The notes under the pieces: model-generated | Seen by the model: only the letters and a program-made list of their open reading frames with translations | Databases searched by the model: none | Told to the model about the DNA's origin: nothing | Part shown: piece by piece, positions 11,554 through 51,371 of the stretch | Layout of the letters: the number at the start of each line of letters is the position of its first letter | Numbering within the stretch: the stretch's first letter is position 1 | Program-made: the position numbers and the translations under genes | DNA from: Rubrivirga sp. SAORIC476 | GTDB taxonomy: Bacteria; Bacteroidota; Rhodothermia; Rhodothermales; Rubricoccaceae | NCBI RefSeq assembly: GCF_002283555.1 | Contig: NZ_MVOI01000003.1 | Coordinates: 642,536 to 706,535 of the forward strand | Reading direction: 5' to 3' | DNA length: 64,000 bases

Positions 11554-13833
11554 ATGGCCCCTTCGCTCCGCTCGCTCGTCGCACTCACTGCGCTCCTCCT
11601 TGCCACTAGCAGCGCCTGGGCCCAGACGGGCGGCCTGCGCGGCTTCGTCACCGGCGCCGACGACGGCCAGCCCCTCATCGGTGCGACGGTGCTCGCCGCG
11701 CCTCTCGCCGCAGACGGCTCGCTGGATGGGGAGCCCCGTGGCGCCGCCGCCGATGTCGACGGCCTCTACGTGATCCCGCGCCTGTCGGTGGGGCGCTACC
11801 TCGTCCGCGTGAGCTACGTCGGCTACGAGACGGAGATCGACACGCTCACCATCGACGCGGGCCCGCTGCGGTCGTACGACGTCGCGCTCCGCGTGGAGAC
11901 GGGCGGCCTGGAGGTCGTGGTGGAGAGCGAGCGCTCGACGGGCGGCGCGCGTGTCACGGCGGGTGTGCAGGCCATCGACCCGCGCGACATCGACATCGTG
12001 CCCGCGCCGGATGTCTCGGGCGACCTCGCGAGCTACCTCACCACCTCGCCGGGCGTCGTCACGACCGGCGACCGCGGCGGGCAGTTGTTCGTTCGCGGCG
12101 GCGAGCCAAGCCAGAACCTCGTCCTGCTCGACGGCATGGCGCTCTACCAGCCGTTCCACGTGCTCGGCTTCTACTCGGCGTTCCCATCGGACATCCTGGC
12201 CGGGGCGGACCTCTACGCGGGTGGCTTCCCGGCGCGCTACGGCGGGCAGGTCTCGTCGGTGCTGGACATCCAGACGCGCAACGGCAACAAGCGCCAGCTG
12301 GCCGCGGCGGCCTCGGTGGCGCCGTTCGTGAGCGCGGCCCGCGTCGAGGGCCCGATCGTACAGGGGACCACCTCCTTCGTGGCGTCGGGCCGCGTGAGCG
12401 TGGTTGAGGAGGGCGCCGCTCGGCTCGTCGACCGTGACCTGCCGTTCGACTTCGGCGACGTGTTTGGCAAGGTCCACTCCGTGCTGACGCCCAACGCGCA
12501 GCTCTCGGTGCAGGGCATCCACACGTACGACCGCGGTACCATCGGCGAAGACGTCGGCGGGACGGTCCCCGAGGAGGTGAGCTACCGCAACACGGCGGCC
12601 GGGCTCCGCTTCCTGTACCTGCCGAACGTGTCCGCGCTGCGCGCCGAGATCCTGGTCAACGCGTCGAGCCTGGAGAGCGACCAGGGGCTGGACACGCTGC
12701 GCAACGTGCCGCTGCGGGCGTCCAGCATCGGCCGGATCAACGCCGAGACCAACCTGACGTTCTACCTCCCGTCGGTGGACCTGAAGACGGGTGTCTTCGT
12801 CCGCACGAACCGCCTCACGAGCGACCTGCGGCTGGTCGGCGGCGACAACCTGCGGGAGTTCTACACCGAGGCGGGCGCCTACATCGAGCCGGAGCTCCGG
12901 CTGGGCGGGCTCTCGGTGCAGGGCGGCGTTCGCGTGCAGAGCTACCCCAACGACGGCCGGACGTACCTGGAGCCCCGCGCGCGGATCGTGTGGTCGGGCC
13001 GCGGCCAGGAGATCTCGGCGGCGGGCGGCCTCTACCACCAGGAGGTGATCGGCGTCAACGACCGCCGCGACGTGGCCAACGTGTTCACGGCGTGGACGCG
13101 CGCCCGCTCCGAGGAGGTGCCGTCGGCCTGGCACGGCATCGTGGGCTACCGCGTCACGCCGACCCCGTGGCTGGAGCTCGTCGCGGAGGGCTACTACAAG
13201 TACCTCCAGAACCTGCAGGTGGCCGAGTGGACCGCCTTCCCGCGCTTCTCGACCGGCACCCAGCCCGCCGACGGCGAGGTCTACGGCCTCGACACCCGCG
13301 TGGAGGTCCGCGCCGGGGACGCCCTCTACGCGTACGTCAGCTACGGCCTCTCGGAGGTCACCTACGACGCGCAGGGCCCGAACCTGGAGCTGTGGTACGG
13401 CAGCGAGTCGCTCCGCTTCAACCCGCCGCACGACCGCCGCCACCAGCTCAACGCGCTCGTCAGCACGACCGTCGCAGGCGTGGACCTGTCGGCCCGCTTC
13501 CAGTTCGGCTCAGGGCTTCCGTTCACGCGGGCGCTCGGCTTCGACCGCTTCATCTCGCCCAACACGCCCCCGGACGTGTTCGAGACGCCGGGCACCTCCC
13601 GCGTGATCTACGAGCGCCCCTACAACGGCCGCCTGCCCACCTTCCACCGGCTGGACCTCTCGGCGGACCGCACGTTCACGCTCCGCTCGGGCCTCGACCT
13701 GACGGCCCAGCTGGCGCTGATCAATGCCTACGACCGGGCCAACGTGTTCTACTACGACACGTTCACGCTCCAGCGCGTCGACCAGCTGCCGCTCATCCCG
13801 TCCTTCGGCCTCAAAATCGCCGTCAACGACTAG
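11554..13833 (+). CDS. TonB-dependent receptor with N-terminal carboxypeptidase-like domain
   Basis: 759 residues. Signal peptide MAPSLRSLVALTALLLATSSAWA; a CarboxypepD_reg-like beta-sandwich at about residues 27-115 (DGQPLIGATV, DGLYVIPRLSVGRYLVRVSY); then the plug domain (QLFVRGGEPSQNLVLLDGM, SAFPSDILAGADLYAGGFPA). The remainder is an outer-membrane barrel with many aromatic strand ends. It should import a ligand in a TonB-driven way. It heads a five-gene operon: the next gene starts directly after its stop codon, and all four genes that follow encode surface lipoproteins of one family, as in other receptor/lipoprotein pairs of this phylum. The substrate is unknown. Confidence 0.93.
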   Translation: MAPSLRSLVALTALLLATSSAWAQTGGLRGFVTGADDGQPLIGATVLAAPLAADGSLDGEPRGAAADVDGLYVIPRLSVGRYLVRVSYVGYETEIDTLTIDAGPLRSYDVALRVETGGLEVVVESERSTGGARVTAGVQAIDPRDIDIVPAPDVSGDLASYLTTSPGVVTTGDRGGQLFVRGGEPSQNLVLLDGMALYQPFHVLGFYSAFPSDILAGADLYAGGFPARYGGQVSSVLDIQTRNGNKRQLAAAASVAPFVSAARVEGPIVQGTTSFVASGRVSVVEEGAARLVDRDLPFDFGDVFGKVHSVLTPNAQLSVQGIHTYDRGTIGEDVGGTVPEEVSYRNTAAGLRFLYLPNVSALRAEILVNASSLESDQGLDTLRNVPLRASSIGRINAETNLTFYLPSVDLKTGVFVRTNRLTSDLRLVGGDNLREFYTEAGAYIEPELRLGGLSVQGGVRVQSYPNDGRTYLEPRARIVWSGRGQEISAAGGLYHQEVIGVNDRRDVANVFTAWTRARSEEVPSAWHGIVGYRVTPTPWLELVAEGYYKYLQNLQVAEWTAFPRFSTGTQPADGEVYGLDTRVEVRAGDALYAYVSYGLSEVTYDAQGPNLELWYGSESLRFNPPHDRRHQLNALVSTTVAGVDLSARFQFGSGLPFTRALGFDRFISPNTPPDVFETPGTSRVIYERPYNGRLPTFHRLDLSADRTFTLRSGLDLTAQLALINAYDRANVFYYDTFTLQRVDQLPLIPSFGLKIAVND

Positions 13834-15558
13834 ATGCTGCGCACCGCCCCTCGCCTGCTGCTCGGCCTGGCTGCGCTCGCCTTCCTCGGAGCGTGCTCGG
13901 ACTCCGTGGACCCGACGCTCGGCACCGAGCAGGCGTTCTCGCTCTACGGCTACCTCGACCCCAGCGCCGACCGGCAGGCCCTCCGCGTCGCCCCGATCGT
14001 GGGCACCATCGTGGCCGACACCGCGCGCACGCTCGCGGCGACGGTCACCTCGGAGGAGCTGGGCACGGGCCGGACGGTCGCCTGGCGCGACTCGTTCGTG
14101 ACCTACCGCGACGGCTCGACGGGGCATGTCTTCGTGGCCGACTACACGCCGACGCCGGGCGCGACGGTCGAGGTCCGCGTCGCCGAGACCACCGGCGAGG
14201 GACGCGTCACCACGGCCACCGTCGAAGTCCCGCCCCTGACCCAGTCCGCCATCGGCGAGCCGACGGTCGTCGCGGGCATGACGACCTACACGGTGACCGT
14301 CCGCGCGCCGCGCGTGATCGGGGGCACGCTCCGGCTCTTCGTGACAGGCCTCCCCTCGGCGCCGGCCGACACGAGCGCGCTCGTGGTGCCGATCGAGCCC
14401 GGGGAGCTGGAACTCACCGACCGCGGCGGCGAATGGACCGCCCGCGTCCCGTTTCTCGAAGCCACACGCGACTTCCTCGAGGCCGAGGATCTCTTCGGCG
14501 TCGGGCTGACGCTGGTCGAGGCCGAGTTCGCACCATTCGTCACGAGCACCGCCTGGGCCATCCCTCCCGACGGCCTCGACGACGACGCCATCGTGGAGCC
14601 GGGGACGTTCTCGAACGTGGTCGGCGGCTTCGGCTTCGTGGGGTCCGGCTTCGAGGCGCCCGTGCGGTGGGTGCCCTCGCCGGGCACGCAGGCTCGCGCC
14701 GGGTTCGCCGTCGAGGGCGATCCGGCGGGTCTCGTGGTGGTGAACGAGGTCGGCACAGGGTTCGTGGAGCTGTACAACTCGTCGATCGAGCCGGTCAGCC
14801 TCGGTGGCTATGCGGTCTCGGCCGGGGCCCCCGAGGCGGGCGTCCGGCTGCCGCCGACCATCCTCGACGGCAAGGCCTTCCTCGTGATCGAGGGCCCCTT
14901 TTCGGTCACCGCCAGCACCACCATCACGCTCACCAACCTGTCGGGACAGGAGGTGCACCGGCTCTACATCGACCAGGACATCAATGCCGAGCCGCGCGGC
15001 CCCGCCTGGGGGTCGTACCCGGACGGTCTCTCGGCCCCGATCCGCGGCGCCTTCCCGGGCGACGACGGCCACGACCTGTTCCATGGCCCCCTGCTGCTCA
15101 CTCCCGGCGCGCCGAACCGACCGTATACCGTCCCGGCCGTGATCAACGAGATCTCGACCTCCGGCGACGGCTTCGTCGAGGTGCTGCGCCAGAGCTCCCT
15201 GCTCGCCCGCGTCTCGCTGGGAACGACCCCCCGCAACCTCGGGCTCGCCGAAGCCACGCAGGTCGAAGGCGACTTCTTCGTGGCCGACGAGACGGAGCAC
15301 TTCGAGTTGGAACAGACCGGAGGCACGCTGTACCTGCTCGCGACCTACGGCCCGCGCCCCGACCCCGGCCAGACCCGACCGCGACGGGTGGTGGACGCAC
15401 GCGCTTACGGTCCGCAGAGCCCAGGGCGCTCGGTCGGCTTCGTGCCCGACGGTCTCGCCGACCCGCGGGATTCAGACCGCGGCTGGCAGGTGGACCTTTT
15501 CCCCACCCGTGGCCGCCCCAACGCTGCAAGCGGGCGGCTCGCGACCCGCTCCGAATGA
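13834..15558 (+). CDS. DUF4249/lamin-tail lipoprotein, paralogue A1
   Basis: 574 residues. A lipoprotein signal with lipobox LGAC (Cys about residue 22). The N-terminal third (SDSVDPTLGTEQAFSLYGYL) resembles DUF4249 proteins that partner TonB receptors. Two lamin-tail-like stretches follow (VVNEVGTGFVELYNSS and AVINEISTSGDGFVEVL), each ending with a TPGAPNRP or PTRGRPNA motif. It starts directly after the receptor stop and overlaps the next gene by ATGA. From its lipobox to residue 122 it is identical to its neighbour B1, while the rest resembles A2, so the N-terminus looks converted. It probably sits on the outer membrane and helps the receptor bind its ligand. Confidence 0.85.
   Translation: MLRTAPRLLLGLAALAFLGACSDSVDPTLGTEQAFSLYGYLDPSADRQALRVAPIVGTIVADTARTLAATVTSEELGTGRTVAWRDSFVTYRDGSTGHVFVADYTPTPGATVEVRVAETTGEGRVTTATVEVPPLTQSAIGEPTVVAGMTTYTVTVRAPRVIGGTLRLFVTGLPSAPADTSALVVPIEPGELELTDRGGEWTARVPFLEATRDFLEAEDLFGVGLTLVEAEFAPFVTSTAWAIPPDGLDDDAIVEPGTFSNVVGGFGFVGSGFEAPVRWVPSPGTQARAGFAVEGDPAGLVVVNEVGTGFVELYNSSIEPVSLGGYAVSAGAPEAGVRLPPTILDGKAFLVIEGPFSVTASTTITLTNLSGQEVHRLYIDQDINAEPRGPAWGSYPDGLSAPIRGAFPGDDGHDLFHGPLLLTPGAPNRPYTVPAVINEISTSGDGFVEVLRQSSLLARVSLGTTPRNLGLAEATQVEGDFFVADETEHFELEQTGGTLYLLATYGPRPDPGQTRPRRVVDARAYGPQSPGRSVGFVPDGLADPRDSDRGWQVDLFPTRGRPNAASGRLATRSE
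13884..14200 (+). repeat. 317-bp tract shared with 15596-15912 (copy 1)
   Basis: Comparison by eye with 15596-15912 gives three mismatches, all silent third-position changes (G/A in the Gly-Thr-Gly codons, T/C in GGGCAT/C, and G/A in CCG/A). The flanks differ at once on both sides. It covers lipobox to TTGE in protein A1. Confidence 0.92.
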
Positions 15559-17213
15559 CACGCCTGACGCCGCTTCTCCTCCTGGCGATGCTCGCCCTCG
15601 GAGCGTGCTCGGACTCCGTGGACCCGACGCTCGGCACCGAGCAGGCGTTCTCGCTCTACGGCTACCTCGACCCCAGCGCCGACCGGCAGGCCCTCCGCGT
15701 CGCCCCGATCGTGGGCACCATCGTGGCCGACACCGCGCGCACGCTCGCGGCGACGGTCACCTCGGAGGAGCTGGGCACAGGCCGGACGGTCGCCTGGCGC
15801 GACTCGTTCGTGACCTACCGCGACGGCTCGACGGGGCACGTCTTCGTGGCCGACTACACGCCGACGCCAGGCGCGACGGTCGAGGTCCGCGTCGCCGAGA
15901 CCACCGGCGAGGAACGGGTCACCGCGGTGCGGATCTCCGTGCCGACGCTCGACCGTCCGGAAATCGGCTCGTTCCTCGGGACGAGTGCCGAGGTGACGTA
16001 CCCGATCCGAGTCCGCGCCCCGCGCGTGCTCACCACCAGCCTCGTCTACCGGGTCGTCGGGTTGCGCTCGGCGCCGATGGACACCGTGGCCGTCTCCTTC
16101 TCCGACTTCGCGCCGTTCGAGGACGCAGGGGGTGGGACGTGGGGCCTGGACCTCCCCTTTGTCGCCACGAGTCGCGCGTTCCTGTCCTCGCCCGCGGCCG
16201 AAGGCGCGACGCTCCGCCTGGTGGACGTCGCCGTCCGGGCGTTCGTGACCGGGCCCGAGTGGGACATCCCGGCGGGCGGGCTCGACGAGGACCGGATCGT
16301 GGAGCCGGGGACGTTCTCCAACGTGACTGGGGGCTTCGGCTTCGTGGGGTCCGGCTACTGGACCGAGTCGCGCTGGACGCCGTCACTCACCACACAATCG
16401 CGAGCCGGCTTCCTCGTCGACACCGACCCGGCCTCGGTGCTCCGGATCAACGAAGTCAGCGCCCAGGGGTGGGTCGAACTCTACAACCCGACGCTGGAGT
16501 TCGTCCCCATCGGGGGCTACCGGATCTCCTCGGAGGGCCAGGCGAATGCCTTCCCGAGCGGAACGGCCGTCCCCCCGCTCGGCTTCCAGGTCTTGCAGGT
16601 CGCGCCGTCCCTCGCCGACGGACGCGTGGTGCTCGAAAGCCCCGCTGCCGTCGAGATCGTGGAGACAGGGATCCGGGGCCTCTCTGAGATCACCTCGATC
16701 ACCATCGGGTCGTTCCCCGACGGCCGCACCCGGCTCATCGGAGAGTTCCCGGAGTTCCGCGGCTTCAACCTGTTCCAGAACCGCCTCGTCGCGACGCCCG
16801 GCGCGCCGAACCGCCCCCTGTCGTTCCTGGCGATGATCAACGAGGTCTTCTCCGCTGGCACCGACGGGTGGGCGGAGATCCTGGCGCCTCCCGGCGTGAC
16901 GGCCATCTTGGTCACCGACGACCCCGAGCGCCCCCTTTCGATGTGGGTGCCCGCCGTTCGGGAGGGCGACCGGTGGATCGCGAACGAGACCCCCGGGCGG
17001 TTCGATCTTCCGCAGACGGGCGGCGAGGTGTACGTGGCCGTGCTCGTGCGGGATGTGCCCCCGCGAGTCTATGATACCCGGACGTACGGCCCGCAGACGC
17101 CAGAACGGTCCTCGGGCACGCTGCCCGACGGCGACCGCGACGCGTGGAGGCTCGACCTTCTCCCGACCCGAGCGTCACCCAACGCCGCTCCCTCTCGGCT
17201 CGCATCTCGCTAG
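15555..17213 (+). CDS. DUF4249/lamin-tail lipoprotein, paralogue B1
   Basis: 552 residues, lipobox LGAC near residue 18. After the shared N-terminal region the protein is of the B type: PRVLTTSLVYRVVGLRSAP, INEVSAQGWVELYNPT, INEVFSAGTDGWAEIL and ILVTDDPERPLSMWVPA, all close to B2 and unlike A1 or A2. The ATG at 15555 overlaps the stop of A1 (ATGA), so translation is coupled. It is probably a surface lipoprotein partner of the upstream receptor. The reading frame is open far upstream, but only this ATG gives a signal peptide. Confidence 0.85.
   Translation: MTRLTPLLLLAMLALGACSDSVDPTLGTEQAFSLYGYLDPSADRQALRVAPIVGTIVADTARTLAATVTSEELGTGRTVAWRDSFVTYRDGSTGHVFVADYTPTPGATVEVRVAETTGEERVTAVRISVPTLDRPEIGSFLGTSAEVTYPIRVRAPRVLTTSLVYRVVGLRSAPMDTVAVSFSDFAPFEDAGGGTWGLDLPFVATSRAFLSSPAAEGATLRLVDVAVRAFVTGPEWDIPAGGLDEDRIVEPGTFSNVTGGFGFVGSGYWTESRWTPSLTTQSRAGFLVDTDPASVLRINEVSAQGWVELYNPTLEFVPIGGYRISSEGQANAFPSGTAVPPLGFQVLQVAPSLADGRVVLESPAAVEIVETGIRGLSEITSITIGSFPDGRTRLIGEFPEFRGFNLFQNRLVATPGAPNRPLSFLAMINEVFSAGTDGWAEILAPPGVTAILVTDDPERPLSMWVPAVREGDRWIANETPGRFDLPQTGGEVYVAVLVRDVPPRVYDTRTYGPQTPERSSGTLPDGDRDAWRLDLLPTRASPNAAPSRLASR
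15596..15912 (+). repeat. 317-bp tract shared with 13884-14200 (copy 2)
   Basis: Second copy of the tract, offset by 1712 bases from the first, with three silent differences. It covers the lipobox and first 105 or so mature residues of protein B1. Confidence 0.92.
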
Positions 17214-17222
17214 CCTCTCTCG

Positions 17223-18920
17223 ATGCACGCTCTCGCCTCCATGTCCTCGACCCTGCTCGCCGGGCGCCGCCTCGTCCTCTCCGCCGTCGTCCTGGCGGCC
17301 CTGGCCTCGGCCGCCGGCTGCTCTGACAGCGTCGACCCGACGGTCGGCACGGACCAGGTGTTCTCGATGTACGGGTACCTCGACCCGTCCTCCGACCGCC
17401 AGGCGCTCCGCATCATCGAGATCGGGCGCACCATCGGATCGGATACGCTGAGCACCATCGACGCGGTCGTCACCTCGACCGAGGCCGGCTCGGCCGTCAC
17501 CACGACGTGGCGCGATTCGCTGGTGACGTTCGCCAACGGCGCCACAGGGCACGTCTTCCTGGCCGACTACACACCGACGCCCAACGCGCAGGTGACGCTC
17601 ACAGCCACCGCCAGCGACGGCCGAGCGGCGACGGTGAGCATCGCGGTGCCGCCGCTCTCGTCCGCCACCGTCGGAGCCCCCGAGAACGTCAACGGCTTCA
17701 CCACCTTCCCGGTGACGGTGCGCGACGTGCCGCGCGTGATCGGCGGCACGCTCCGACTCCGCGTGACCGGCTTGCCGACGGCGCCCGCCGACACGACGGA
17801 GTTGGAGATCCCGGTCCGCGCCTATGACATCCAGCAGAGCGGGCCGGACTGGGTGGTGGTGGTCCCGTTCGTGGAGGCCACCCAGTCGTTTCTGCGCGCC
17901 CGCAACCTGTTCGGCGTCGGGCTGACGCTCGTCGAGGCGGAGTTCGGTGCCTTCATCGCCAACGACGTGTGGAACGTCCCGCCGGGCGGCCTGGACGAGG
18001 ATGCCATCATCGAGCCGGGGACGTTCTCAAACGTCACGGGCGGCTTCGGCTTCGTGGGCGCGGGCTACGAGGCGCCGGTCCGCTGGCTGCCGTCGCCGGG
18101 GACCCAGTCGCGGGCGGGGCTGGCGATCAGCGGCGACCCGGCGGCCCTCATCGCCGTCAACGAGGTCGGGCCGGGCTACACCGAACTGTACAACCCGTCG
18201 GCAGAGGCCGTCGAGGTGGGAGGCTACGTGCTCACGATGGGCGCGCCGCAGGAGGGCGTCATCATCCCCAACCCCAGCACCGTGCCTCCGGGGGGTTTCC
18301 TGGTGGTGGATGGCCCGTTCTCGGTGGTCGTGGACAAGCCCGTCCAGTTCCTCAGTTCCTCCGGCCGCCTGATCGCCCGCAACTACCCCGAGGCGGACGC
18401 CCAGGTCTGGGGCGCGTACCCGGACGGCCTCTCGTTCGTCCTCCCGCAGGGCGGCCCGGACATCTTCCGCGGCCCCCTCCAGCCGTCGCCGGGCGGCCCG
18501 AACCAGCCGCTCTTCCGGCCCGCGGTGATCAACGAGATCTCGACCTCCGGCGACGGCTTCGTGGAGGTGCTGCCGACTGACCTGGGCTTCAACTCGGCGC
18601 GGCTCTCCTCCGTCTCGCGCGAGCTCGCCTTCAACGGAGTCGACGCGTCCCGCGAGGGCCGCTACGTCGTGGCCGACGAAGGCGGGACGCTCACGCTGGA
18701 GCAGACCGGCGGGACGGTCTACCTGCTGGTGGACTACGGCAGCTCGGAGACCCCCACCGAGCCGTCTGGCTACCGCGTCGTGGACGTCCGCACGTTCGGC
18801 CCGCAGGCCCTGAGCCGTTCGCTGGGCTACCTGCCCGACGGTCCGGGCGGCACCTGGAGCGAGGGCCTCCTGCCCACCCGCGCCGCGCCCAACGCCGCCG
18901 CACGCTTCGTCAGCTTCTAG
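17223..18920 (+). CDS. DUF4249/lamin-tail lipoprotein, paralogue A2
   Basis: 565 residues from ATG 17223; a second ATG at 17241 also gives a lipoprotein signal (lipobox AAGC). The A-type markers PRVIGGTLRLRVTGLPTAPA, NLFGVGLTLVEAEF and INEISTSGDGFVEVL are shared with A1. Its N-terminal region differs clearly from the other three (VGTDQVFSMYGYLDPSSD, then STEAGSAVTTTW), so it keeps what is probably the original A-type N-terminus. It starts nine bases after B1 and lies in the same operon. Expected place: outer-membrane surface. Confidence 0.84.
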   Translation: MHALASMSSTLLAGRRLVLSAVVLAALASAAGCSDSVDPTVGTDQVFSMYGYLDPSSDRQALRIIEIGRTIGSDTLSTIDAVVTSTEAGSAVTTTWRDSLVTFANGATGHVFLADYTPTPNAQVTLTATASDGRAATVSIAVPPLSSATVGAPENVNGFTTFPVTVRDVPRVIGGTLRLRVTGLPTAPADTTELEIPVRAYDIQQSGPDWVVVVPFVEATQSFLRARNLFGVGLTLVEAEFGAFIANDVWNVPPGGLDEDAIIEPGTFSNVTGGFGFVGAGYEAPVRWLPSPGTQSRAGLAISGDPAALIAVNEVGPGYTELYNPSAEAVEVGGYVLTMGAPQEGVIIPNPSTVPPGGFLVVDGPFSVVVDKPVQFLSSSGRLIARNYPEADAQVWGAYPDGLSFVLPQGGPDIFRGPLQPSPGGPNQPLFRPAVINEISTSGDGFVEVLPTDLGFNSARLSSVSRELAFNGVDASREGRYVVADEGGTLTLEQTGGTVYLLVDYGSSETPTEPSGYRVVDVRTFGPQALSRSLGYLPDGPGGTWSEGLLPTRAAPNAAARFVSF

Positions 18921-18927
18921 GGCACGC

Positions 18928-20580
18928 ATGCGCGTCGTCGCGGTTCTCCTGCTCATGGCCCTCCACCTCGGGGCGTGCGCGGACTCCGTCGACCCGACGC
19001 TCGGTACCGAGCAGGCGTTCTCGCTCTACGGCTTCCTCGACCCGACGGCCAGCCGGCAGGCCCTCCGCGTGGTGCCCATCGTCGGTGCCATCGACGGCGA
19101 CACGCTGAGCGCGCTGCCCGTCGAGGTCACCTCGGTGGAGCGTGGCACCGGGCGGACCGCCTCGTGGCGCGACTCGGCGTTCACCTTCCGCGACGGCTCC
19201 ACGGGGCACGTCTTCGTGGCGGACTACACGCCGACGCCGGGCGAGACGGTCGAGGTGCGCGTCGAGGAGACCACCGGCGAGCGCCGGGTCACGCGTGTCG
19301 AGGTCGAGGTGGCCCCGCTTCAGCGGCCGGTGCTGGGCACGGTCCTCACGACCGGTGCGGCCGTGACCTACCCGATCCAGATCCAGGCTCCGCGCGTGCT
19401 GACGACCGAGTTGGTGTTCCGCGTCGTCGGCCTTGCGGAGGCGCCCCTCGACACCGTCGCCGTGCCCTTCGCCGACGTCGCACCGTTCGCCGACGTCGGG
19501 GGCGGCGTGTGGGCCCTCGACCTCGACTTTCTGCCGACGGCGCGGGCCTTCCTCGCGTCGCCGCAGGTCCGTGGCGCGACGCCACGCCTGGTGGACGTGA
19601 CCGCGCAGGTGTTCGTCACCGGCCCCCAGTGGGCCGTACCGCCCGCGGGGCTCGACGAGGACCGCATCATCGAACCGGGGACGTTCTCGAACGTAATGGG
19701 CGGCTTCGGCTTCGTCGGCTCCGGGTTCTGGGCCTCGACGCGCTGGACGCCGTCGCTGGCCACGCAGTCCCGCGCGGGCTTCCTGGTAGAGGCCGACCCC
19801 GCCTCGGTGCTGACGATCAATGAGGTGAGCGGCGGGGGCTGGGTCGAGCTCTACAACCCGACGCCCGAGACGTTGCCGATCGGCGGCTACCGGGTCGCCG
19901 TCGGGGCGGACCGGGCGACGATTCCGGCCGGGCAGTCCATCGCGGGGTTCGGGTTTACGGTGGTGCGCGTCGCGGCGACTCTGCAACGTGGGCCGGTGGT
20001 GCTGGAGAGCCTCAGCGGCGTCCCGCTCGTGGACCTGGATGTGGGAGCCCTCCCCGACGACCCGGACGTGTTCTCGTTCGGCTCGTACCCCGACGGGCGG
20101 AGCCGGCAGATTGGCGAGTTCGCCCAGTACCGCGATTTCGACCTCTTCCGAGGGCTGATTGCCCCGACGCCCGGCGCTCCGAACCGGCCCGTGTCCCATA
20201 TCTCCGTCGCCAATGAGGTGTTCACGACGGGCGCCGACGGATGGGTCGAGACCATCAACCGCCTCGGCATCCGTTCCGTCCTAGTCACTGACGACCCCGA
20301 TCGCACGCTCTCCGAGTGGGTACAGGCCCGCCGGGTGGGCGACTTCTGGGTCGCCGACGAGACGCCCGGACGCCTCGTTCTCGATCAGCTGGGCGGCGAG
20401 GTCGTCGTGGTGGTTCTGCGCAATAAGAACCCGCCACGCGTCTACGACGTCCGGCCGTACGGTCCCCAGGTGCCAGGGCAGTCGTCCGGTCTGCTGCCGG
20501 ACGGCGAGCGCGCCAACTGGACGGAGGGGCTCCGGCCCACGCGCGGCGCGGCCAACGCGCTCGCCCGGTTCGGCTTCTGA
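18928..20580 (+). CDS. DUF4249/lamin-tail lipoprotein, paralogue B2
   Basis: 550 residues, lipobox LGAC near residue 17. B-type markers PRVLTTELVFRVVGLAEAP, NEVFTTGADGWVETI and SVLVTDDPDRTLSEWVQA match B1. The N-terminal region (LGTEQAFSLYGFLDPTASRQ) is similar to that of B1 but not identical. It is the last gene of the operon, seven bases after A2, and is followed by a strong hairpin. No unusual features beyond the array itself. Confidence 0.85.
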   Translation: MRVVAVLLLMALHLGACADSVDPTLGTEQAFSLYGFLDPTASRQALRVVPIVGAIDGDTLSALPVEVTSVERGTGRTASWRDSAFTFRDGSTGHVFVADYTPTPGETVEVRVEETTGERRVTRVEVEVAPLQRPVLGTVLTTGAAVTYPIQIQAPRVLTTELVFRVVGLAEAPLDTVAVPFADVAPFADVGGGVWALDLDFLPTARAFLASPQVRGATPRLVDVTAQVFVTGPQWAVPPAGLDEDRIIEPGTFSNVMGGFGFVGSGFWASTRWTPSLATQSRAGFLVEADPASVLTINEVSGGGWVELYNPTPETLPIGGYRVAVGADRATIPAGQSIAGFGFTVVRVAATLQRGPVVLESLSGVPLVDLDVGALPDDPDVFSFGSYPDGRSRQIGEFAQYRDFDLFRGLIAPTPGAPNRPVSHISVANEVFTTGADGWVETINRLGIRSVLVTDDPDRTLSEWVQARRVGDFWVADETPGRLVLDQLGGEVVVVVLRNKNPPRVYDVRPYGPQVPGQSSGLLPDGERANWTEGLRPTRGAANALARFGF

Positions 20581-29956: not shown

Positions 29957-30787
29957 TCAGCCCTCCGCGTCGATCACGAACACGTGCGAGAGGTGGTTCG
30001 GACGCGTCGAGATGTGGGCGCCCCCACTCGCCCGTCGGCCCGTCGGTAGCGTCGTCGAGACGGCCGTCCGCCCCGGCCTCGGGGAGGGCGCCGTGGTGAC
30101 GGTCCGCGTCTGACCGGGCGCGTTGGGATCGTAGACCGAGATCGTCGCCGCGAGCGGCCCTCGCCGCTCGATCCCGAAGCCCACCACCTGATGGAGCGCA
30201 AACGGGTCCGGCGAGTCGCCGACGAGGCCCAGCAGCACGGGTCGTCCAGCGCCGAGGCGGGCTTCGATCCGGTCCAACTCGGACGCGAGCGCATCGGCGA
30301 AGGGACTGTCGGGGTCGCGGGAGGCGAGGGCACGGAGCCACCACCCGGCGAACCGCGGCAGCGAGGCGCGGAGCGTCCGCTCCTGGCGCTTGCGGAGGAG
30401 GGCGCGCAACGGGCCGGGCTGAAGGTCAGCGGTCGGCGTGCCGCCGTCGCGCTGCGGCCAGCGCTCGATGGCGGCCAGTGCCATGCCCCCGCACAGGCCA
30501 AACGACGACCACCGCCGCGCCACCGACCGAACGATCCCATCGCCCAGCCCGAACCGCCCGAGCACGGCGCCGACGGCCACCCCCACCGCCCCGCCAACGG
30601 GTCCGCTGACGGCACCGCCTAGCCCGGCCCCGAGGGCGACGGGGACCGAGGTCGCGGCACGGAGACGCTTCGACAGGACGTCGAGGTCGGCGTCGGTCCA
30701 GGTGTACTGGTTGCGGAACGAAAACCCGTCTCGCGCGGGGTCGAAGGCCAGGACGACGCGGCGAGGAAACGAAACCGGTGAGGGCAT
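29957..30787 (-). CDS. Papain-like cysteine hydrolase candidate with Gly-zipper segment
   Basis: 276 residues, family not firmly recognised. Residues 52-75 form a Gly/Ala-rich hydrophobic segment (GAGLGGAVSGPVGGAVGVAV) like a glycine zipper. Then comes SSFGLCGGMALAAIERW with Cys99, later FALHQVVGFGIE with His199, and ISVYDPNAPG with Asp220. Cys, His and Asp/Asn in this order, with Gly-rich context around the Cys, fit a papain-like fold. This is inference from spacing. There is no signal peptide. The gene is divergent from the L,D-transpeptidase gene and has a terminator-like hairpin just before its start. Confidence 0.7.
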   Translation of the reverse strand: MPSPVSFPRRVVLAFDPARDGFSFRNQYTWTDADLDVLSKRLRAATSVPVALGAGLGGAVSGPVGGAVGVAVGAVLGRFGLGDGIVRSVARRWSSFGLCGGMALAAIERWPQRDGGTPTADLQPGPLRALLRKRQERTLRASLPRFAGWWLRALASRDPDSPFADALASELDRIEARLGAGRPVLLGLVGDSPDPFALHQVVGFGIERRGPLAATISVYDPNAPGQTRTVTTAPSPRPGRTAVSTTLPTGRRASGGAHISTRPNHLSHVFVIDAEG

Positions 30788-30809
30788 ACCTGAGCGAAGG
30801 GAGGGCACG

Positions 30810-30831
30810 AAAAAGGACCACGGAAGTCCTT
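30810..30831 (-). terminator. Terminator-like hairpin in the leader of the papain-like gene
   Basis: On the minus strand AAGGAC, a seven-base loop and GTCCTT are followed by TTTTT (plus-strand A run at 30810-30814). It lies 23 bases upstream of the start codon at 30787, and no gene upstream would need a terminator here. It could be an attenuator. Confidence 0.5.
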
Positions 30832-30938
30832 GTTCGGGAACGACCGCCCCCCGATCTTGCGGAGGCGATCTGGGAAAGAGACGGGGGAGAACGACGCCCC
30901 GCCCCCACAGGTCCGCCCGACACACACTCCCTGACCCC

Positions 30939-32732
30939 ATGAGCGAACGACCCTATCGTCGCCCGCTCGGCCTGGTGCTCTTCGCCGGGCTCGTGCTCGT
31001 CGCCGGAGGCGCCTCCGCGACCTACGTCCACCAGCGCAGCCAGCGCGTCACGCCTGCGACCGTCGCGCCTTTCGTCGCCGAGCGGCTCACGACCGACAGC
31101 CTCGCGCTGCACCCGGCCACGCACGCCCTCTACGACTCGCTCGGGCGCCGACCCGTCTGGTTCGCCCCGGCCGCCCGCGGGGCGGCCCTCGCCACCCTCC
31201 GCCGTGCCGACCGCGACGCGCTGCCGCTCGACTCGGCCCTGGCCGACCTCGGCGCGCTCGCCGACACCGCCGCGACCTCGGCGGGCCTCGCCCACCTCGA
31301 CGTGGCGCTGACGGACGCCCTGATGCGGTTCGGCGCCGCCCTCGCCTCGCCACGCGTCGACGCGCGGGCGCTCTACGGCATCAACTGGACGCCCGCGCCC
31401 TCGGCGCCACCCGACCTGGCCGCGCCCCTCGCCACCGCGCTCGCGACCGCCGCCGACACGCCCGCCGCGCTCGATGCCTGGGCGGATGGGCTGCGTCCGC
31501 CGCACCCCGGCTACCGTCGTCTCCGCGCCGCGCTGGCCCGCGAGCTGGACCTCCGCGACCGCCCCGACCTCGCCCTCGACGCCGACCTCGCCCCCGGCGA
31601 CTCCGGCGCTGCCGTCGTGCGCCTCCGCGAGCGGCTCGCCCTGGAGCGAGAGGCTCCGGCGTCCGACATGCCGCGCGTCTTCGACGGCAGCCTCGCCGAC
31701 GCGCTTCGGAGGGTGCAGCGCGCCCGGGCCCTCTCCCCCACCGGCCGCCTCGACGCGCCGACGCGGACTGCGTTGAACGAGCGCCGCGCCGAGCTCATCC
31801 CGCTCCTCGCGCTCAACCTGGAGAAGTGGCGCTGGCTGCCGCGTGACCTCGGCGACCTCCATGTCTGGGTCAACGTGCCCCGCTTCGAGCTGGCCCTCCG
31901 CGAGCGCGCGGGCGACGACTGGTCCGACGCGGCGCGCTTCGTGACCGTCGTCGGCGCCCACGACTGGGAAACGCCGGCCTTCACCGACACGATGGAGACG
32001 ATCGTGTTCAACCCGACGTGGATCGTGCCCGCCTCCATCCAGCGCGAGTCCTACGGCGAGGTCCGCGGCTTCGTCGAGCGTCAGCCGGGGCCGGGCAATG
32101 CGATGGGGCGCGTCAAATTTCTCTTTCCCAACGACCACGCCGTCTACGTCCACGACACGCCCTCGAAGTGGGCCTTCGGCGTGGACGACCGGGCGCGCTC
32201 CCACGGCTGCGTCCGCGCCGGAAACCCGGAGGCGCTGGCCCGCGAGCTGCTGACGCGGACCAACGGCTGGACCGCCGAGCGCGTCCGCGCCATCTTCCAG
32301 GGTCCTTGGGGACCGACCCAGTCGGTCACCGTCGAGGCGACCGTCCCGGTCCACCTCGTCTACTTCACGGCCGAGGTCGACCCCGATGGCCGCCTTCGCG
32401 TCTACGACGACGTGTACCGCCGCGACGCCCGCCTCGCCGACGCCCTCGGCCTGGAGCGGCCTGACGCCCGCGGCCGGGTCCTCGCGACGCTCATCGCGGA
32501 CACCATCGGGGACGAACACGAGGTGGAGGAAGAGGAAGCAGGCCCCGACGAAGACGTCGCCGACGTGGAGGCGGAGACAGAGGCCCCCGCGCCGTCCCCG
32601 GCACCGCCGCCGGAGGCCCGCACGGCCGCACCGGACCGTCGCCTCGTCGGCCCATCGGATACGCTGGGAACCCGAGAGGGAGAGGTACTTTCGAGGTCCC
32701 CCGCGCCGTTGGCGCCCCGTCCCCGCTACTGA
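30939..32732 (+). CDS. L,D-transpeptidase, YcbB type (copy 1)
   Basis: 597 residues. An N-terminal signal anchor (LGLVLFAGLVLVAGG), a scaffold and peptidoglycan-binding-like region with LNLEKWRWLPRDLGDLHVWV, and the YkuD catalytic domain. The catalytic pair is His405 (VYVHDTPSKWAF) and Cys424 in SHGCVRAG. The enzyme should form 3-3 crosslinks in peptidoglycan or attach proteins to it in the periplasm. The C-terminal 80 residues are acidic then Pro-rich and probably disordered. ATG 30939 gives the membrane anchor. The next gene is a diverged copy five bases downstream. Confidence 0.93.
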   Translation: MSERPYRRPLGLVLFAGLVLVAGGASATYVHQRSQRVTPATVAPFVAERLTTDSLALHPATHALYDSLGRRPVWFAPAARGAALATLRRADRDALPLDSALADLGALADTAATSAGLAHLDVALTDALMRFGAALASPRVDARALYGINWTPAPSAPPDLAAPLATALATAADTPAALDAWADGLRPPHPGYRRLRAALARELDLRDRPDLALDADLAPGDSGAAVVRLRERLALEREAPASDMPRVFDGSLADALRRVQRARALSPTGRLDAPTRTALNERRAELIPLLALNLEKWRWLPRDLGDLHVWVNVPRFELALRERAGDDWSDAARFVTVVGAHDWETPAFTDTMETIVFNPTWIVPASIQRESYGEVRGFVERQPGPGNAMGRVKFLFPNDHAVYVHDTPSKWAFGVDDRARSHGCVRAGNPEALARELLTRTNGWTAERVRAIFQGPWGPTQSVTVEATVPVHLVYFTAEVDPDGRLRVYDDVYRRDARLADALGLERPDARGRVLATLIADTIGDEHEVEEEEAGPDEDVADVEAETEAPAPSPAPPPEARTAAPDRRLVGPSDTLGTREGEVLSRSPAPLAPRPRY

Positions 32733-32737
32733 GCCTC

Positions 32738-34465
32738 GTGCCCACCCCTCTGCTTCCCCTCGCCCTGGCCGCCCTGCTCGGCTGGGGCTTCCTCGGCGAC
32801 CTGTTCGGTCCGGAGACCGTCGCGCCGCCCGCGCCCGACGCCGTCGCCGAGGCCGTCGCCGCCCGTATCGACGGCGCGCGAAGCCTGCACCCGGCGACCG
32901 CCGATCTCTACGCCGAGCCCGGCCTCCGCTGGGCCGATGCCCGCGCCCGCGCCGCGCTCGTCCGCGTGCTGGACGCCGCCCCGTCCGACGGCGTCCGCGA
33001 CATCGAGGTCCACGCCGACGCGCTGCCTGCGCTCCGCCGGGCGCTGGCCGACGCCGAGCGCGAGTGGGCGGCCCTCGACGGCGAGGCCCGCGACACGCTC
33101 GCCGACCCGCGCCCGGCCCGCCTCGCCGCGCTCGACCTCGCCATCACCGACGGCCTGCTGCGCTTCGGCGACGCCCTTCGCGGGCGCCGCACCGACCCGA
33201 CGCAGCTCTACCGGCACTCCTGGTTTCCGACCGTTCGCGACTCGACGGGCGCCCAGTTCGCCGCTCTCGCCGAGGCCGTCCGCCGGTCCGACGTGCGGGG
33301 CGTGGACCGCGCCCTCGACGCGCTGCGCCCGCCGCATGACGGCTATGCGCGCCTCCGCGCCCGCCTTGCGGCCCTCCAGGGCGACCTCGCGCCCGTCCCC
33401 GAGGGCGCCGACCTGGCGCCCGGTCAGCGGTCGGTCCGCGTGCCCCACCTCCGCGACCGGCTGACGGCGTGGGGCTACCTCGCCGCCGACACGCTCGACG
33501 CGTGGAGTCGCCCCGACGCCTACGTCTTCGACGATTCGCTGGCCGCCGCGCTCGGCCGCTTCGAGGCCGCCGAGCGGCTCCCGGTCGACAGCGTGCTGGA
33601 CGCGACCGCGACCGAGGCGCTCAACGCCGACCTCGCGCCGCTGCGCCGCCAGATCGCCCTCAACCTGGAGCGGTGGCGCTGGCTGCCCGACGACCTCGGC
33701 GACCACTTCATCTGGGTCAACCTGCCCGCCTTCGAACTCCGCGTCCTCCAGCGCGACTCGACCGGCAGCCCGGACGAGCCGTACGCCGAGAAGCTGCGGA
33801 TGCCCGTCAACATCGGCAACGCGCAGACGGCCGGGTGGACGACGCCCGTGATCACGGATTCGGTCCACACCGTCGAGTTCCAGCCGGTGTGGTACGTGCC
33901 GCGCTCGCTGGCGGCGTCCAACGTGTTTCCGATGGCGGTCCGCGACAGCCTCGCGCTGTGGCGGCAGGGCTTCGAGGTGTACCAGAACGGCGCCGCGGTC
34001 GACTCGCGGCTGGTGCCGTGGGATTCGGTCTCGGTCGGCCAGTTCCGGTTCGTGCAGCGACCCGGCCCGGCCAACCCGCTCGGACGCGTCAAATTCCTGA
34101 TGCACAACCCGTACGCGATCCTCATCCACGACACCAACAAGCGCTACACGTTCGACGATGGGGCGGGCTCGTCCATGTCGAGCGGCTGCGTGCAGGCCGG
34201 CGCCCCGGACGTGCTGGCCGAGTACCTGCTGACGACGGTCAACGGCTGGGAGGAAGGGCAGGCCCGCGCGGCGTGGCAGCGCGGGCCGCGACGGGGCGTC
34301 CGGCTGGACCGCCCGTTCCTGTCGCAGTTCACCTACTTCACGACCTGGGCCGAGACCGACGGCTCGCTCCGGGTCTACAGCGACCCGTACAACTACGACG
34401 CTCGTCTGGCCGAGGCGCTCGGCCTCGGGGCGCCCCTGCCGACCACCGCGACCCCAGATGCCTGA
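32738..34465 (+). CDS. L,D-transpeptidase, YcbB type (copy 2) with SSGC motif
   Basis: 575 residues from GTG 32738. The overall design is as in copy 1: a short N-terminal hydrophobic anchor (LLPLALAALLGWGFLG), IALNLERWRWLPDDLGDHFI and a YkuD domain. His464 (ILIHDTNKRYTF) and Cys484 are kept, but the segment around the Cys reads SSGCVQ in place of SHGCVR, so the His and Arg near the nucleophile are changed. The catalytic His upstream remains, so it may well be active. It is likely co-transcribed with copy 1; a TACTTTCG box lies about 45 bases upstream within copy 1. Periplasmic. Confidence 0.92.
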   Translation: MPTPLLPLALAALLGWGFLGDLFGPETVAPPAPDAVAEAVAARIDGARSLHPATADLYAEPGLRWADARARAALVRVLDAAPSDGVRDIEVHADALPALRRALADAEREWAALDGEARDTLADPRPARLAALDLAITDGLLRFGDALRGRRTDPTQLYRHSWFPTVRDSTGAQFAALAEAVRRSDVRGVDRALDALRPPHDGYARLRARLAALQGDLAPVPEGADLAPGQRSVRVPHLRDRLTAWGYLAADTLDAWSRPDAYVFDDSLAAALGRFEAAERLPVDSVLDATATEALNADLAPLRRQIALNLERWRWLPDDLGDHFIWVNLPAFELRVLQRDSTGSPDEPYAEKLRMPVNIGNAQTAGWTTPVITDSVHTVEFQPVWYVPRSLAASNVFPMAVRDSLALWRQGFEVYQNGAAVDSRLVPWDSVSVGQFRFVQRPGPANPLGRVKFLMHNPYAILIHDTNKRYTFDDGAGSSMSSGCVQAGAPDVLAEYLLTTVNGWEEGQARAAWQRGPRRGVRLDRPFLSQFTYFTTWAETDGSLRVYSDPYNYDARLAEALGLGAPLPTTATPDA

Positions 34466-48247: not shown

Positions 48248-49567
48248 ATGACCCGTTTGTCCCTCTCTGGCGCGCTCGCGCTCGCTCTTTTCGCCACCGG
48301 CTGCTCGACCACCACGGTCACCATGGTGGACGACATGCCCGACCCGGCGCCGACGCCCGGTGACATGGCGATGGTCTCGGAGTGCGTCGACGGCGCGGCC
48401 TCGGCCGAAGGCAGCACGTTCGAGTGCTCCAACGTCGACCTCGTCGCCTACGTCCCGCTCGAGGCCTTCGACGCGGACCAGCTCAACGACATCTGGGGCT
48501 GGACCGACTCGGAGACCGGCAAGGAGTACGCGATCGTTGGCCTCGCCAACGGCACGGAGTTCATCGACATCTCCAACCCGACCAACCCGATCCTGCTGGG
48601 CAAGCTGCCCACGCAGACCGTCTCGACGGTCTGGCGCGACATCAAGGTCTACCGCGACCACGCCTTCATCGTGTCCGAGGCCCGCAACCACGGCATGCAG
48701 GTCTTCGACCTGACGCGCCTCCGGGGCCTGACCTCCGACCAGGGGGAGTTCACGGCTGATGCCCACTACGACAAGGTCACGAACGTCCACAACATCGTGA
48801 TCAACGAGGACTCGGGCTTCGCGTACGCGGTCGGCTCGGGCTCCCAGGGCGACGACCTGCCCGCCGAGTGCGGCGCGCCGGGCTTCCACGTGATCAACAT
48901 CCAGGACCCGACCAACCCGACGTTCGTGAACTGCTTCTCGGACGCCTCCAAGGACACGTCGCCGGTCTCGGCGCCGGGCTACACCCACGACGCCCAGTGC
49001 ATCAACTACGACGGGCCGGACGCGGACTACACCGGCCGTGAGATCTGCGCCGCCTCCAACGAGGACGTCGTGACGTTCTTCGACGTGACCGACAAGATGA
49101 ACGTCCGCATCATCTCGATGGCCGAGTACCCGCAGGACGCCTACACGCACCAGGGCTGGTTTACCGAGGACCGCCGCGCGTTCATGGCCAACGACGAGCT
49201 CGACGAGACGAACGGCTACGTCAGCACCCAGCGGACGCTGCTGTTCAACGTCGAGAACCTCGACGAGCCCGAGTTCATCGGCATCTACGACTCCGGCATC
49301 ACGACGATCGACCACAACCTCTACGTCAAGGGCGACCTGAGCTACCAGAGCAACTACCACTCCGGCCTCCGGATCATCGACCACTCGGACGTGCTGAACG
49401 GCAACCTCGTCGAGGTCGGCTACTTCGACACCTACCCGGCAGCGACGGAGATCAGCTTCGGCGGCCAGTGGAGCAACTACCCGTACTTCCCGAGCGGCCT
49501 CGTGATCGCGAGCGACTCGAACACGGGCTTCTTCGTGCTCCGCCCGAACATCTCGATCACCATGTAA
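48248..49567 (+). CDS. LVIVD-repeat / choice-of-anchor B lipoprotein (copy 1)
   Basis: 439 residues. Lipoprotein signal with lipobox ATGC. The body is a beta-propeller-like domain with repeats such as NDIWGWTDSETGKEYAIVGL, TEFIDISNPTNPILLGKLPT, VWRDIKVYRDHAFIVSEA, THDAQCINYDGPDADYTGRE and TIDHNLYVKGDLSYQSNY. Unlike copies 2 and 3 it ends soon after FVLRPNISITM and has no T9SS domain; the lipid is its anchor. Function unknown, probably on the cell surface. First of three tandem relatives; a strong terminator follows. Confidence 0.9.
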   Translation: MTRLSLSGALALALFATGCSTTTVTMVDDMPDPAPTPGDMAMVSECVDGAASAEGSTFECSNVDLVAYVPLEAFDADQLNDIWGWTDSETGKEYAIVGLANGTEFIDISNPTNPILLGKLPTQTVSTVWRDIKVYRDHAFIVSEARNHGMQVFDLTRLRGLTSDQGEFTADAHYDKVTNVHNIVINEDSGFAYAVGSGSQGDDLPAECGAPGFHVINIQDPTNPTFVNCFSDASKDTSPVSAPGYTHDAQCINYDGPDADYTGREICAASNEDVVTFFDVTDKMNVRIISMAEYPQDAYTHQGWFTEDRRAFMANDELDETNGYVSTQRTLLFNVENLDEPEFIGIYDSGITTIDHNLYVKGDLSYQSNYHSGLRIIDHSDVLNGNLVEVGYFDTYPAATEISFGGQWSNYPYFPSGLVIASDSNTGFFVLRPNISITM

Positions 49568-49597
49568 GCCGACGGCCTTCGGGCTCGTGCAGGCTCC

Positions 49598-49630
49598 GCG
49601 GGGGACTCGGCATCGCGCCGGGTCCCCCGC
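49598..49630 (+). terminator. Hairpin terminator after LVIVD copy 1
   Basis: GCGGGGGAC (49598-49606) pairs with GTCCCCCGC (49622-49630) around 15 bases, followed by the T-rich TTCGTTTG. Confidence 0.75.
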
Positions 49631-49676
49631 TTCGTTTGTGCCCTTCCGGGACCCGAGGAACGAGCCCGAGCGCGCG

Positions 49677-49683
49677 TAGGTTG
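49677..49683 (+). promoter_or_regulatory. Promoter -7-like box TAGGTTG
   Basis: TAGGTTG lies 22 bases before the ATG of LVIVD copy 2. The paralogous gene downstream has TACGTTG at 51340-51346, 25 bases before its ATG. The matching positions support a shared promoter element. Confidence 0.4.
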
Positions 49684-49705
49684 GCCGCGCCCCTCCTGCC
49701 CGACC

Positions 49706-51304
49706 ATGCGTCTCCGCCTCTCACTCCTGCTCGCCCTCGGCCTCGTTGTCGCCCCCCCCGAGGCGGGCGCACAGGACGCCCGCGCCGACTGCGTCGGCGG
49801 CGTGGCTGCGCTGCCGGACGTGGGCGCGTTCCCCTGCCTCGGCGTCGACCTGGTGGGGTACCTCTCTGTCGGCTCGTTCAGCAGCCCGGGCTCGCCGGCG
49901 GCCACCGGCAACAACGACATCTGGGGCTGGACCGACCCGCTGACGGGCACCGAATACGCACTGGTGGGCACGACCAACGGGACGGCCTTCGTGGACCTCT
50001 CCACGCCCCAGTTCCCTCGCCTCGTAGGCAAGCTGCCGACCAGCAACGAGCTGACGCCGGTCTGGCGCGACATCAAGGTCTACCGCAACCACGCCTACGT
50101 CGTGGCCGACAATGCGCGCGACCACGGGGTGCAGGTGTTCGACCTGACGCGCCTCCGCGGCCTCACCGGCGACCCGGTCACGTTCGCCCCGGACGCGGTG
50201 TACCCGGGCATCCGCTCGGCGCACAACATCGTGATCAACGAGGACACCGGCTTCGCATACGTCGTCGGGTTTCGGTACCCGGCAGGCGAGCGGGAGGCGC
50301 TGGGGCTGCCTGCCTCCTGCGACCTGCCCGGCTTCCACGTGCTCGACCTCGCCGACCCCGCCGCGCCGGCCTTCGTGACGTGCTTCTCCGACGCCGACAT
50401 CGAGGTCGGCCCCCGCACGCCCGGCTACACGCACGACGCGCAGTGCGTCGTCTACGACGGACCGGACGCCGACTACACGGACCACGAGCTGTGCTTCGCC
50501 GCCAACGAGGACGTGGTGACGGTCTTCGACGTGACCGACAAGAGCGACATCACGATCGTCTCGCAGGCGTTCTACCCGTCCACCTCGTACACGCACCAGG
50601 GCTGGCTCACGGCCGACCAGCGGTTCTTCCTCACCGACGACGAGTTGGATGAGCGGAACGGGCTCGTGCCCACCCAGCGGACCATCGTGCTGGACTTCCT
50701 CGACCTGGACGATCCGGAGTTCGCCTACGTCTACGACTCCGGCCTGCCGTCGATCGACCACAACCAGTACGTCCGGGGCCGGTACAGCTTCCAGAGCAAC
50801 TACGAGACGGGGCTGCGGATTCTCGACCTGAGCCAGGTGGCCCAGGGGACGCTCACCGAGGCCGCCTTCTTCGACACGTACCCGGACGCGAACACGGTCT
50901 CGTTCAACGGCCAGTGGAGCAACTACCCGTACTTCGAGAGCGGGCTGGTGATCGCCAACGACGGCGACTACGGCCTCTTCGTGCTCCGCCCTGACGCCTC
51001 GTTGGACGTTACCAACGCAGGCGGCCCCGTGCCGCGGTCCGGGTTCTCGCTCTCCGCGCCGCGCCCGAACCCCTCTGCCGGCGACACCCGGCTGACGCTC
51101 CAGGTCGACACCGCGCAGCAGGTCCGCGCCGAGCTGTTCGACGTGGCGGGCCGCCGCATGGCCTCGCTGTACTCTGGTCCAGCGACGCCGGGCACGCGCC
51201 TCACGCTAGCGGTCTCCGGGACGAACCTCCCGGCGGGCGTCTACGTGGTCCGCGTGGTCGGCGAGGCGTTCGAGGCGTCCCAGCGAGTCGTGCTCACGCG
51301 GTAA
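49706..51304 (+). CDS. LVIVD-repeat / choice-of-anchor B protein with T9SS domain (copy 2)
   Basis: 532 residues. Signal peptide (LRLSLLLALGLVVAPPEAGA) with no lipobox; propeller-like domain as in copy 1 (IWGWTDPLTGTEYALVGTTN, HDAQCVVYDGPDADYTDHEL, QSNYETGLRILDLSQV). The last 80 residues are a type IX secretion C-terminal domain: APRPNPSAGDTRLTLQVD, AELFDVAGRRMASLYSG, and the end LPAGVYVVRVVGE to VVLTR. It should be exported by T9SS and fixed to the cell surface or released. Function of the propeller unknown. Confidence 0.92.
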   Translation: MRLRLSLLLALGLVVAPPEAGAQDARADCVGGVAALPDVGAFPCLGVDLVGYLSVGSFSSPGSPAATGNNDIWGWTDPLTGTEYALVGTTNGTAFVDLSTPQFPRLVGKLPTSNELTPVWRDIKVYRNHAYVVADNARDHGVQVFDLTRLRGLTGDPVTFAPDAVYPGIRSAHNIVINEDTGFAYVVGFRYPAGEREALGLPASCDLPGFHVLDLADPAAPAFVTCFSDADIEVGPRTPGYTHDAQCVVYDGPDADYTDHELCFAANEDVVTVFDVTDKSDITIVSQAFYPSTSYTHQGWLTADQRFFLTDDELDERNGLVPTQRTIVLDFLDLDDPEFAYVYDSGLPSIDHNQYVRGRYSFQSNYETGLRILDLSQVAQGTLTEAAFFDTYPDANTVSFNGQWSNYPYFESGLVIANDGDYGLFVLRPDASLDVTNAGGPVPRSGFSLSAPRPNPSAGDTRLTLQVDTAQQVRAELFDVAGRRMASLYSGPATPGTRLTLAVSGTNLPAGVYVVRVVGEAFEASQRVVLTR

Positions 51305-51371
51305 GACGACGGACGAGAAGGCACGGTCCCGGCGCGGCGTACGTTGCTCCGGTCTCCCCTTCCCCTGCCCG

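Follow-up and report, generated by a model that had tools for sequence, protein, structure and literature searches.

Probable recent gene conversion within one domain of tandem predicted lipoprotein genes in Rubrivirga sp. SAORIC476

We analyzed a stretch of 64,000 nucleotides from Rubrivirga sp. SAORIC476 (hereafter, the window), which is part of a 2.16 Mb contig in a genome of 4.48 Mb and 19 contigs. On its forward strand, a gene cluster is headed by a TonB-dependent receptor gene (11554..13833, 759 aa) with Pfam matches to CarboxypepD_reg (4.6 × 10−12) and the TonB plug (1 × 10−7). The receptor stop directly abuts the start of A1 (13834..15558, 574 aa), an open reading frame whose own stop overlaps the start of B1 (15555..17213, 552 aa) in the motif ATGA. 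Two further paralogous frames follow on the same strand, A2 (17223..18920, 565 aa) and B2 (18928..20580, 550 aa), the latter being the closest paralogue of B1. Judged from their sequences, all four products are probable lipoproteins, with signal peptides carrying a lipobox cysteine (LGAC in A1, B1, and B2; AAGC in A2); the cysteine codon of A1 is at 13894-13896. Past B2, on the opposite strand, lies a putative RpoD-like sigma gene identified by eye. Other paralogue arrays were also noticed in the window. Positions 48248-52943 hold three tandem paralogues at ~70% DNA identity, the first two of which match choice-of-anchor B (TIGR04312); by eye, the first resembles a lipoprotein, the second appears to have a T9SS sorting tail, and the third looks like the second. 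In the adjacent same-strand frames 30438-32732 and 32738-34465, which by eye are putative L,D-transpeptidase paralogues, the 3′ parts have a stretch of 102 bases in common at 78% identity.

The first part of A1 was predicted with moderate confidence to form two Ig-like beta domains (residues ~31-133 and ~134-283). Model residues 295-384 matched lamin A/C (3gef; Z 10.4, rmsd 2.4, 89 residues), suggesting a lamin-tail fold in a region where model quality is moderate (pLDDT about 55-80). Scores for the lamin tail family (PF00932) were 20.8 bits for A1, 21.7 for B1, 16.5 for A2, and 22.9 for B2, all below the gathering cut-off of 34.3, which the X_2 paralogue of a relative exceeds (37.4 bits). For DUF4249 (PF14054; cut-off 28.5), the highest-scoring of the four window proteins reached 17.1 bits and a relative's protein 23.3 bits; because these fall below the gathering cut-off, we use only the label DUF4249-like for the first part of the proteins. 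The cluster products are therefore described here, as a prediction of moderate confidence, as two Ig-like domains (DUF4249-like) plus a lamin-tail domain, encoded behind a TonB-dependent receptor. A sequence search for solved structures gave no match, NCBIfam held no family for A1 or B1, and Rfam had no match in the window; Foldseek with the whole model returned only generic Ig-like or fibronectin folds at low TM-scores.

Bases 13884..14200 of A1 (forward strand, codons 17-123) and 15596..15912 of B1 (forward strand) align without gaps over 317 bases, 314 of which are identical, with a longest exact run of 183 bases. The preliminary description of this DNA had reported that the two stretches differ at three silent sites only, and this is what we found: the mismatches (A1/B1 positions 14067/15779, 14127/15839, and 14157/15869) are all silent and in third positions. 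It was also right that the genes are strongly diverged elsewhere, as A1 and B1 share 52-57% DNA identity and 37-45% protein identity outside the tract. Silent divergence is ~0.5 outside the tract and 0.033 within it (3 of 90.5 silent sites; 95% interval 0.007-0.094). The A1-B1 run comprised 72 polymorphic sites and was significant in a GENECONV-like permutation on the polymorphic columns of the four genes (p ≤ 0.0005). Searching the organism's own genome with the tract recovered the four cluster genes and one weak relative (70% identity), but no further donor.

In a search of 40 relatives and family members, a recognizable cluster was found only in G003 and G001, so that the locus is present in three genomes only. 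In G003 (relative X, locus L038), the receptor is followed by X_1 (the A1 orthologue), X_2, X_3 (the B orthologue), and X_4 (the A2 orthologue); in G001 (relative Y, loci L039 and L043), it is followed by Y_1 (the A1 orthologue), Y_2 (the A2 orthologue), and Y_3, a B orthologue truncated by the contig end. Both A1 orthologues have 64-65% protein identity to A1 across its full length. G006 holds a partial relative of the cluster at a contig end, and G002, of the same genus, gave no match to the cluster. Searching a named collection yielded one true relative contig, the Rubrivirga MAG JAAXJP010000231.1, which appears to be the same as the G001 locus (it has the same genes), and one off-target match. 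After the receptor, the paralogues are ordered A1 B1 A2 B2 in the window (13834-20580), A1 X_2 B A2 in X (L038:1488-8298), and A1 A2 B in Y (L039:1-3949). As the order differs in each of the three genomes while the receptor-A1 junction is conserved in L038 and L039, the array has been repeatedly rearranged. A separate locus, L042:1502-6244, is a second receptor cluster of the same genome and has three short tandem DUF4249-like lipoproteins without the lamin-tail extension.

The relatives provide the background against which the near-identity of A1 and B1 can be read. In X and Y, the first domain of the A1 orthologue has 83-84% DNA identity to B, at a silent divergence of 0.22-0.29, and only 71-76% DNA identity to A2. 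Given this background, finding three or fewer mismatches in 317 bases has a probability of ~1 × 10−19 to 1 × 10−21, and finding three differences at ~90 silent sites has a probability of ~6 × 10−7 to 4 × 10−10; the tract's silent divergence likewise compares with 0.376 for cross-genome paralogue pairs. The preliminary description had named as contrary evidence a B-type N-terminus that A1 of the relatives had always possessed, with normal silent divergence. The B-like N-terminus does predate the event, but the silent divergence of 22-29% in the relatives is not shared by the window, where it is 3%.

That description had also argued that A1 was probably overwritten by B1, on the ground that B1 resembles B2 in this stretch whereas A1 does not resemble A2. 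The unlikeness of A1 and A2 is partly ancestral and is seen in both relatives; since it holds in lineages without the recent event, the direction cannot be deduced from it. A recent transfer from B1 to A1 is nonetheless supported by the orthologues at the same locus in X and Y, a comparison that the preliminary description had proposed. We defined diagnostic sites as those at which both A1 orthologues agree, both B orthologues agree, and the two pairs differ. Within the tract, A1 is B-type at 12 of 15 decided nucleotide diagnostics and A1-type at the other three (14000, 14115, and 14118); at the protein level, it is B-type at all 5 decided sites, the lipobox Gly among them. The tract tree pairs A1 with B1 (support 100/99) and adds B2 to the pair (94/95), and constraining A1 to its orthologues was rejected (AU p 3.6 × 10−5). 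In the downstream tree, A1 falls with its orthologues at modest support (78/81) and a grouping of A1 with B1 was rejected (AU p 2.7 × 10−7); the LTD-to-end tree places A1 in the A group, without resolution of its place therein. A1 is thus mosaic, with A1-type sequence on both flanks of the tract: the signal peptide and the receptor junction on one side and the downstream sequence on the other. These flanks rule out an unequal crossing-over that gave a hybrid gene.

From the orthologue-diagnostic sites and the trees, the direction is best read as B1 into A1. A transfer from A1 into B1 is improbable; it could draw on the three diagnostics that remain in the A1 state and on the B-like first domain that the relatives' A1 orthologues also have, but it is contradicted by the B-type state of all the other diagnostics and by the grouping of A1 and B1 with B2, as placing the pair with the A1 orthologues costs 21.9 lnL and is rejected, though less strongly than the other constraints (AU p 0.026). 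An assembly artefact, in which reads from a single copy were assembled into both, is also unlikely, and somewhat more so. The long exact run shared by the copies, judged from the assembled sequence alone, would fit such an artefact; however, both copies lie in a single contig, where their flanks differ and three scattered mismatches distinguish them, copies 16% apart, as in the relatives, are not normally merged by an assembler, and a mis-join requires a pre-existing repeat. Strong purifying selection on protein and codon usage, keeping the first domain alike without conversion, has next to no chance and is by itself already rejected for the window by the silent-site data: the A1, B, and X_2 paralogues do resemble one another most in domain 1, but silent differences in the tract stand at 3% for A1/B1 versus at least 22% in all other comparisons, same-gene orthologues included, and orthologue pN is similar in domain 1 (0.076) and elsewhere (0.089), which indicates no unusual constraint on the domain.

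The tract's left edge is the lipobox (CTC GGA GCG TGC) and its right edge is position 14200. The earlier placement of the border at the lipobox, leaving the signal peptides different, is confirmed, and the signal peptide of A1 is A1-type. In X and Y alike, the homology between A1 and B forms a block that runs from the lipobox to about alignment column 150, and identity falls off sharply at either edge. The tract begins at the edge of this block and stops 14 codons short of the other edge, inside domain 1; the unconverted remainder of the ancestral block (14201..14244, forward strand), which carries the last domain-1 strand, is divergent from B1 in both the identity profile and the codon view. 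On the structural model, the tract would span long strands one to six of the first Ig-like domain, with an A1-type last strand (residues 125-131). Because the lipobox is where homology starts in all three genomes, and because the 3′ border falls inside the domain, the borders need no functional explanation; we infer that they are as expected for homologous recombination limited by homology.

Taken together, we propose, with a probability of roughly 0.88, that a recent, non-reciprocal ectopic gene conversion copied ~317 bp of B1 into the neighboring tandem paralogue A1. Most of A1's first mature domain would now derive from B1, whereas A1 would have kept its own signal peptide, last domain-1 strand, second domain, and lamin-tail regions. 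The event would have proceeded by RecA-type recombination between homologous stretches (cf. PMC8022953); exact A1/B stretches in the relatives' pairs are 34-44 bp. Its borders would reflect the points at which homology begins and weakens, not selection for a domain swap. At silent sites, the two copies of the tract differ about one-tenth as much as the window and X orthologues do (~0.4), and the conversion is therefore recent on that scale. Among the three differences, the simplest reading of 14127 is a change on the A1 side and of 14157 one on the B1 side, while 14067 can be assigned to neither.

Domain 1 may have an older history of this kind. In relative X, pN between A1 and B is 0.120 in domain 1 versus 0.418 elsewhere, and domain 1 is more similar than orthologue rates would lead one to expect (pN ratio 0.34, 0.19-0.56; pS ratio 0.69, 0.46-0.98). 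The A1-A2 pair gave no such effect (ratios 1.03 for pN and 0.99 for pS). Across X and Y, A1-B silent divergence is 0.254 within genomes versus 0.289 between them, a weak signal (ratio 0.88, CI 0.75-0.98), and per-site mosaic maps of X and Y were too noisy for placing further tracts. These data suggest that, across the genus, domain 1 of A1 and B is alike beyond its present rate through earlier conversion, either one ancient transfer or several; for the amino-acid part of this likeness, fast divergence of domain 2 after duplication is an alternative. Only tentatively would we extend this to concerted evolution restricted to one domain and genus-wide: the first Ig-like domain of A1 and B (and X_2) would be kept uniform by recurrent conversion because the single receptor docks on it in each protein, while the outer domains would evolve into distinct binders. 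A second, smaller conversion is possible at a 49-bp patch that A1 (15139..15187) and A2 (18525..18573), both on the forward strand, share with one mismatch. The surrounding A1/A2 sequence is ~60% identical, and both genes differ there from their own orthologues (permutation p 0.0005; site count p 0.03, for a patch picked after being seen).

DUF4249 proteins are known neighbors of a TonB-dependent transporter subfamily, beside which they are usually encoded (PMC11003636); our search of the DUF4249 literature found nothing beyond that paper. Given this and the architecture of the locus, the most likely products of the cluster are a receptor and several partner lipoproteins that act as alternatives or jointly. 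As an addition to the conversion from B1 to A1, it is conceivable, though we consider it doubtful, that the conversion was selected through a need for domain 1 to fit a shared partner, for instance the single upstream receptor. The presence of one receptor gene for four lipoproteins, the DUF4249 neighborhood, and the restriction of both the tract and the earlier similarity to domain 1 would agree with this idea. Against it, the borders track the limits of homology, with the 3′ border in domain 1 and an A1-type last strand, and A2, in the same cluster, is without the A1/B type of domain 1, which weakens a strict matching requirement.

The locus resembles BT2172-BT2173 (PMC11003636) in having DUF4249-like lipoprotein genes directly after a receptor gene, but differs in its three or four tandem paralogues, each with a lamin-tail extension, and in DUF4249 scores below the cut-off. 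As in the ectopic conversion cases of Santoyo and Romero (2005), as cited in PMC6053082, a short tract of a paralogue is homogenized, silent sites included, with unchanged flanks. Compared with those cases as cited there, this one involves four tandem genes for predicted lipoproteins next to a receptor gene in Rhodothermales, and its tract lies in one domain. Short-term conversion cases in bacteria are often in outer-membrane protein genes (PMC6053082). The long-lasting concerted evolution of Wang and Chen (2018, PMC6053082) has paralogues within a genome that are closer than orthologue divergence predicts, as those here may be; however, theirs is full-length, with partial-gene cases named as future work, whereas here only domain 1 is involved and the long-term part is weak.

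The process itself is ordinary; the conversion is real and well resolved, and its domain-limited pattern is instructive. It provides a clear, orthologue-backed example of conversion limited to one domain among outer-membrane lipoproteins encoded in tandem, from a little-studied phylum, and illustrates that uniformity of one domain is compatible with divergence of the others. Trees inferred from full-length A1 would blend two histories. If the homogenized domain is the receptor contact, the pattern would be a sequence-based clue to one TonB-dependent receptor serving several lipoproteins.
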